Source: Alcaligenaceae bacterium
GTDB lineage: Bacteria; Pseudomonadota; Gammaproteobacteria; Burkholderiales; Burkholderiaceae_B
NCBI GenBank assembly: GCA_947378965.1
Contig: CANCMG010000010.1
Location: 1 to 62,702 of the forward strand
DNA length: 62,702 bases
Direction of reading: 5' to 3'
Made by a program: the position numbers and the translations under genes. Shown here piece by piece: positions 25,831-27,432 of this stretch (the stretch's first letter is position 1; each line of letters starts with the position of its first letter). Under the pieces are notes generated by a model that was given only the letters and a program-made list of their open reading frames with translations, did no database searches and was not told where the DNA came from.

Positions 25831-27432
25831 TTAGAACCCGCCCATGCCGCCCATTCCACCCATGCCGCCCATATCACCACCACCCATACCACCGCCGCCA
25901 GCTGGCTTGTCTTCAGCCAGTTCGCAGACAGCTGCTTCAGTGGTCAGCAACAAGCTGGCAACAGACGCTGCATTTTGCAAGGCAGTGCGTGTGACTTTAG
26001 TTGGATCCAACACACCTTGCTCGACCAGGTCACCGTATTCACCGGTGGCGGCGTTAAAGCCGTAGTTACCCGAACCGTTTGCAACTTCGTTGACCACAAC
26101 GCTTGGCTCGTGACCAGCGTTTGCAACGATGATGCGCAATGGCTCTTCGATGGCGCGCAACACAAGCTTGATGCCTGCGTCTTGGTCAGCGTTGTCACCT
26201 TTAAGCTTCGACACGACAGCGCGTGTGGCATGCAAAGCATCTTCAACGCGAGCTTTCTTTTCTTTCATTTCGACTTCGGTAGCAGCACCGACGCGAATCA
26301 CAGCAACACCGCCGGCCAACTTAGCCACGCGCTCTTGCAATTTTTCACGATCGTAGTCAGATGTGGCTTCGTCGATCTGGACACGAATCTGCTTGACGCG
26401 TGCTTCGATTGACTTGGCATCGCCATGACCGTCGATGATGATGGTGTTTTCTTTACCGACTTCGATACGCTTAGCCTGACCGAGTTCTGCCAGTGTGGCT
26501 TTTTCAAGCGACATACCGGTTTCTTCAGAAATGACGGTACCACCGGTGAGGATGGCGATGTCTTCGAGCATGGCTTTGCGACGATCACCGAAACCAGGCG
26601 CTTTAACGGCGGTGGTTTTCAGGATGCCACGAATGTTGTTGACGACCAGCGTGGCCAAAGCCTCGCCTTCGACGTCTTCAGCCACGATCAGCAGTGGGCG
26701 GCTCGACTTGGCAACTTGCTCAAGCACGGGCAGCAGGTCACGAATGTTGCTGACTTTTTTGTCATAGATCAGAACATACGGGTCATCCAACGCTGACACT
26801 TGCTTGTCAGGATTGTTGATGAAGTAAGGCGACAAGTAGCCGCGATCAAACTGCATCCCTTCAACGACGTCGAGTTCGTTGTCGAGTGACTTGCCGTCTT
26901 CGACAGTGATCACGCCTTCTTTACCGACTTTGTCCATTGCGTCTGCAATGATTTTGCCGATCGAGAAGTCGCTGTTAGCTGAAATTGAGCCAACTTGAGC
27001 GATTTCTTTGGTTGTCGTGCAAGGCTTTGACAACTTCTTGAGCTCTTCAACCGCAACAGCGACAGCTTTGTCGATACCGCGCTTCAGATCCATTGGGTTG
27101 ATGCCGGCAGCCACGTACTTGAGGCCTTCAACAACAATCGACTGCGCCAACACTGTAGCAGTGGTGGTGCCGTCGCCAGCGTTGTCAGAAGTCTTTGAAG
27201 CGACTTCTTTCACCAACTGGGCGCCGATGTTTTCAAATTTGTCTTTGAGTTCGATTTCTTTAGCAACCGACACGCCGTCTTTAGTGACGGTTGGGGCGCC
27301 GAACGAACGCTCGAGCACAACGTTACGGCCCTTAGGACCGAGGGTGGTTTTTACAGCATTGGCGAGGATATTTACGCCACGGACGATGCGCACGCGTGCG
27401 TCATCACCGAATAGAACTTGCTTGGCAGCCAT
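25831..27432 (-). CDS. groEL: Chaperonin GroEL with an internal in-frame deletion
   Basis: GroEL is the 60-kDa chaperonin that folds proteins with GroES in an ATP cycle. The frame is open from [15 protein letters not shown] to the GGM-rich tail, and most of it is canonical: [23 protein letters not shown], and the catalytic-aspartate region [10 protein letters not shown]. Immediately after ATRA the normal continuation (EEG-V-GGGVAL-type loop) is missing: the sequence goes [16 protein letters not shown], about 19 residues short of E. coli GroEL. The lost loop contains the conserved glycine triplet that contacts nucleotide. The protein is therefore 533 residues and may be inactive, unless this is an assembly error. 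It follows groES. Confidence 0.9.

Follow-up and report, generated by a model that had tools for sequence, protein, structure and literature searches.

Does this locus encode a GroEL that dispenses with the Gly414-416 nucleotide loop, or was part of an ordinary groEL lost from the recorded sequence? The window (the whole stretch of DNA analysed, 62,702 nt) is the entire contig G000:C10 and carries groES and groEL behind a perfect CIRCE. A preliminary description of this DNA had noted that groEL lacks about 19 codons in frame near 26200-26230, and comparison with relatives put the loss at exactly 57 nt (19 codons), in frame. The gap is probably no new kind of chaperone but an artefact, a collapse at a direct repeat in assembly or in a library chimera.

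The groEL gene and its missing segment

Table 1. Features of the groESL locus in the window.
Feature	Coordinates	Strand	Evidence
groEL, 533 aa, without 19 codons (E. coli residues 406-424)	25831..27432	-	TIGR02348, 787.7 bits (cut-off 582.1); alignment with relatives
Direct repeat ACACGCGCTG, one copy kept, with the 57-nt loss on it	26217..26226	-	Comparison with relatives
Loop-less junction	26198..26232	-	Junction pattern: 1 match in the window, none in 100 shuffles
groES, 95 aa, intact	27458..27745	-	ORF and profile match
CIRCE inverted repeat upstream of groES, intact	27800..27826	.	0 mismatches

Positions 26218 and 26217 flank the junction, which could equally be placed anywhere in the repeat copy that remains (Table 1). 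An intact relative (locus L003) and E. coli GroEL (4pkn_G) have equal lengths over residues 381-450, so the missing residues are 406-424, or the equivalent register shifted within the repeat. Gly414-416 are among them and Asp398 is kept, in agreement with the preliminary description, which had also judged GroES and the CIRCE intact, as they are.

The gene was compared with canonical GroEL (E. coli; TIGR02348). It shares the rest of the sequence, Asp87, Asp398, the C-terminal GGM tail, the groES partner and the upstream CIRCE, and the protein matches TIGR02348 over its full length with 205 bits to spare. It differs by the loss of 406-424. In the 26 intact sequences aligned, T403 to G410, V412, G414 to L419 and R421 were invariant, and of these A406-G410, V412, G414-L419 and R421 are gone from the window protein, the Gly414-416 loop included. 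Asp398 and the GDGTTT motif (D87-T91), which is presumably phosphate-binding, are present in the window protein and invariant in the alignment; Gly415 is taken here to contact the nucleotide. Since the loop is absent, the product as written cannot be classed as a working GroEL, even though by descent the gene is groEL.

AlphaFold2 (from alignments of 26 and 27 sequences) modelled the window protein with a pLDDT of 38.6 and an intact control with 37.6, both too low to interpret. Asp398 of GroEL is given as catalytic in the available part of PMC5717063; for Leptospira GroEL, the available part of a docking study (PMC12907346) lists Gly414, with Asp397, Asn477 and Asp493, among the residues that docked compounds contact.

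Presence of the loop in relatives

Among the 31 further genus genomes, 26 covered the site in the DNA fetched, two had a groEL fragment past the site only, and three (G012, G017 and G030, drafts 83-97% complete) had no groEL match. With seven more in which contig ends cut groEL, drafts of this genus often lose the gene. The 19 residues were present in all 26 genus relatives that covered the site and in all 29 loci fetched from elsewhere in the family. The family survey comprised 200 genomes (196 with a match), and the loop was read only in the fetched loci, which were the best matches.

A wider scan for the loop-less junction was carried out on a collection of 84,980 species, each represented by a single genome, from which the window's own genome was possibly left out. 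The pattern fits only this junction with such codons and would not detect loss of the loop in a different register. Five matches were returned (Nocardioides, one; Azoarcus, one; Bacteroides, two; Undibacterium, one) and were rejected as further loop-less GroELs, none of them lying in a GroEL. The suggestion that this might be a natural GroEL without the glycine triplet thus found no parallel among the genus and family loci or in the scan. A literature search at the level of titles and abstract openings, which was not aimed at proving absence, found no comparable groEL gap. If real, this would to our knowledge be the first sole GroEL to lack the nucleotide-contacting glycine loop.

Copy number of groEL

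The G000 draft genome comprises 4,503,821 bases in 189 contigs (96.47% complete, 1.6% contamination); from the 189 contigs and the 96.5% completeness we infer that it is a metagenome bin. Its size is 4.5 Mb, and 29 of the 31 genus relatives measure 2.4-4.1 Mb. One groEL match was found in the 4.50 Mb. A profile search of the genome gave no other PF00118 match, and a degenerate pattern of the GroEL loop had no exact match in it; another groEL in the organism, as had been proposed, was therefore not found in this 96.5% complete genome. The single gene appears as two PF00118 pieces because of the gap.

A single match was usual in the genus, being found in 27 of the 29 genomes that had any Cpn60 (PF00118) match; the exceptions were G000 and G005. 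The latter (5% contamination) has two groEL copies, both at contig ends, and among the genus genomes searched none showed two complete copies. A G008 contig aligns almost unbroken to 11124-27871 of the window and stops there, and the upstream side beyond 27871 differs from G009. Given that the window groEL adjoins groES and has the usual downstream neighbourhood, as the G008 alignment indicates, it is taken to be the ancestral copy.

Two observations were made on the flanks. Long tracts of the window (27871-45491, 47510-51455 and 55245-61846) are unmatched at the corresponding place of G009:C6. Downstream of groEL, an open frame at ~24805-25585 (+), which resembles a short-chain dehydrogenase, is aligned across by G008 and one G005 contig; it is absent from G009, G013 and G015, since the flanking matches nearly touch there.

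A direct repeat at the junction

The preliminary description had offered, as one possibility, a loss between short repeats, and this holds at the DNA level. In L003 and L026 the 57 nt are bounded at both edges by the 10-nt repeat ACACGCGCTG, and in L007 and L013 by a form 1 nt longer (11 nt); the window retains a single copy. The junction thus falls exactly on a direct repeat of intact genes, in some relatives. Elsewhere the repeat is shorter (7 nt in L004, 7 nt in L005, 4 nt in L002), with 7 nt of it in G009 (nearest upstream), and a repeat of at least 9 nt occurs at the site in four genus loci out of 26 and in none of the 29 from elsewhere in the family. As the repeat is not general among the genus loci, its presence in the organism's own intact gene is deduced from the copy that was kept.

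Exact direct repeats of at least 10 nt lying within 300 nt of each other were counted in the first 1560 nt of groEL: five in L003, four in L004 and three in L007; in L003 and L007 the repeat with period 57 is among them. All 12 of these listed pairs are in frame, so loss of the segment in frame is no sign of selection. The share of all possible 57-nt deletions that would fall on such a repeat is 0.76% in L003 and 0.83% in L007; in L002, L004 and L005 there are none.

Selection on the remainder of groEL

In the 500 codons compared, which flank the gap on either side, synonymous differences from the window number 28 in G013, 20 in G009, 36 in G015 and 31 in G008; the non-synonymous ones number 0, 2, 1 and 1 in the same order. 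Its protein is identical to those of G013, G009 and G015 over residues 1-408; these relatives carry the 19 residues and have 552 aa, as against 533 aa in the window.

The purely synonymous differences from G013 imply that groEL has been under constraint up to the present. A function lost long ago is therefore unlikely: such a gene would not look so constrained unless the loss were extremely recent. groESL is described as essential in the available part of PMC7844535. With constraint of this kind, and part of the ATP pocket gone from the sole copy of an essential gene, the gap is either extremely recent or not real.

Shared tracts, contig breaks and other gaps

Between these species, groESL is better conserved than most of the DNA around it. 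In the alignment with G009, its block shows 78 mismatches over 2327 columns plus 84 gap letters (93.0% identity, gaps counted), and of the other syntenic blocks seven stand at 82.9-89.5% and one at 93.3%. Long exact matches are concentrated in the same place: the shared 77-mers that fall inside groESL number 697 of 737 for G009:C6, 412 of 426 for G013, 407 of 459 for G015, 432 of 463 for G008, and 336 of 336 and 19 of 19 for two G005 contigs, and a short G011 contig shares none. Taken over six relatives, the shared 55-mers come to 3479 in groESL, 297 in the best listed tile of equal length clear of it and 0 in the median tile. These counts favour groESL in that the relatives' stretches were fetched around groEL; the most complete of the relatives, G009, aligns to ~28 of the 62.7 kb and gives the same concentration. 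With most of the long exact shared k-mers there, groESL is a likely site for an assembler to misjoin. If related species co-occur in the sample, short-read assembly graphs would be expected to tangle at groESL.

According to the available part of PMC11479545, conserved tracts common to several species tangle and break metagenome assemblies. The condition is the same here, a tract near-identical between related genomes; that study, as far as its available part goes, treats resistance genes and fragmentation, whereas the case here is 57 nt lost inside a gene at a short repeat.

The deleted segment was considered as the most conserved part of groEL and rejected as such, the 57-mer ranking 886 of 1443 by variability among 23 genus relatives. 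What holds is a weaker form: the shared tract is groESL in its entirety, and the first 50 nt of the gap fall in a stretch of 122 nt without differences among four close relatives. A chimera of two strains at the junction was not supported either, as differences to the relatives do not switch sharply there.

groEL is cut at contig ends in 7 of the 31 genus relatives, a weak excess over the 3.9 expected (P 0.074, from rounded sizes and contig numbers); with the three groEL-less genomes counted as broken, the figure is 10 of 31 (P 0.002). Genes can be missing for reasons other than a break, so the excess is suggestive only. No N was present in the window or in ten 20-kb stretches of other G000 contigs (262.7 kb of 4.50 Mb), hence there is no sign of a scaffolder in these.

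Other gaps were read from 28 alignments of at least 500 nt (seven contigs, six relatives). The largest has 41 nt, at 3837, and the others, of 12 to 38 nt, are found at 4.2, 4.9, 12.7, 13.2, 18.7, 21.3, 23.6, 25.7 and 46.5 kb, those at 12.7, 13.2, 18.7 and 23.6 kb coinciding with tandem repeats.

The contig contains several tandem arrays. At 18571-18731, a 38-nt unit is repeated 4.2 times (85% alike) beside a break in synteny with G009:C6, whose matches end at 18538 and restart at 23649. At 57017-57133, a 41-nt unit is repeated 2.9 times (98% alike), with a unit length that is not a multiple of three. Six-base arrays are found near both contig ends (GCCGGT, 13.7 times, at 1011-1092; GCAGAA, 14.7 times, at 61768-61855).

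Explanations weighed

The probabilities given to all readings are matters of judgement and were not computed. In the probable one, the organism would have an ordinary single-copy groESL operon, of which the recorded groEL sequence would have collapsed by 57 nt between the 10-nt repeat copies. The collapse would have happened not in the cell but through a misjoined contig or a chimeric read, in the tract that is near-identical among related species, and the living organism would make a normal GroEL with the glycine loop. This presupposes that the intact gene carried the repeat, that related species were in the same sample and that the event was technical, not biological. An overlap of 10 nt is shorter than the k-mers usually employed in assembly; plain k-mer collapse is thus insufficient, and this reading has to invoke a misjoin or chimeric reads. 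The preliminary description had offered three readings (an inactive protein, another groEL, or 57 bases lost in assembly), of which the last fits best and the second has no support in this 96.5% complete genome. An intact second copy might still lie in the missing few percent of the genome, with the window copy a fresh pseudogene: completeness is only 96.47%, and some other genera of the family have 3 to 4 match pieces, which is compatible with several copies. With two complete copies in no genome of the genus, and the window gene beside groES and in the usual place of the genus on its downstream side, we consider this very improbable.

The main rival to the artefact, itself unlikely, is a real and very recent deletion by replication slippage between the 10-nt repeats: a minority, declining or transient allele of the sequenced cells, encoding a GroEL without the nucleotide loop, would have been caught by the assembly. 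Slippage leaves precisely the footprint seen at the junction, with a single repeat copy remaining and the sequence between the copies gone, and the lack of N indicates no scaffolding. Against it stand the severity to be expected of such a loss where one groEL is the rule, the undiminished constraint on the remainder of the gene and the essentiality of groESL stated in the available part of PMC7844535. Least credible of all is a natural GroEL that lacks the Gly414-416 loop and yet works, or has taken on a new role that does not depend on nucleotide. In its favour, the reading frame continues across the gap, and groES, the CIRCE and the remainder of GroEL are intact; retention of the frame is uninformative when 12 of 12 listed repeat pairs in L003, L007 and L004 are in frame, the loop is missing from none of the genus and family loci, no other GroEL with this junction came out of the collection scan, and no compensating change is seen, the 500 codons compared with intact G013 holding 0 non-synonymous differences. 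It is equally hard to believe that the deletion is real and fixed in the lineage, leaving as its sole GroEL a protein without the loop, perhaps a holdase lacking normal ATP cycling.

Implications

A real gap would call for a new view of how much of the ATP cycle life needs. As the finding most likely stands, it is a warning that well-scored drafts can hold in-frame microdeletions in essential genes, which automatic annotation accepts: the window protein exceeds the GroEL cut-off by those 205 bits.
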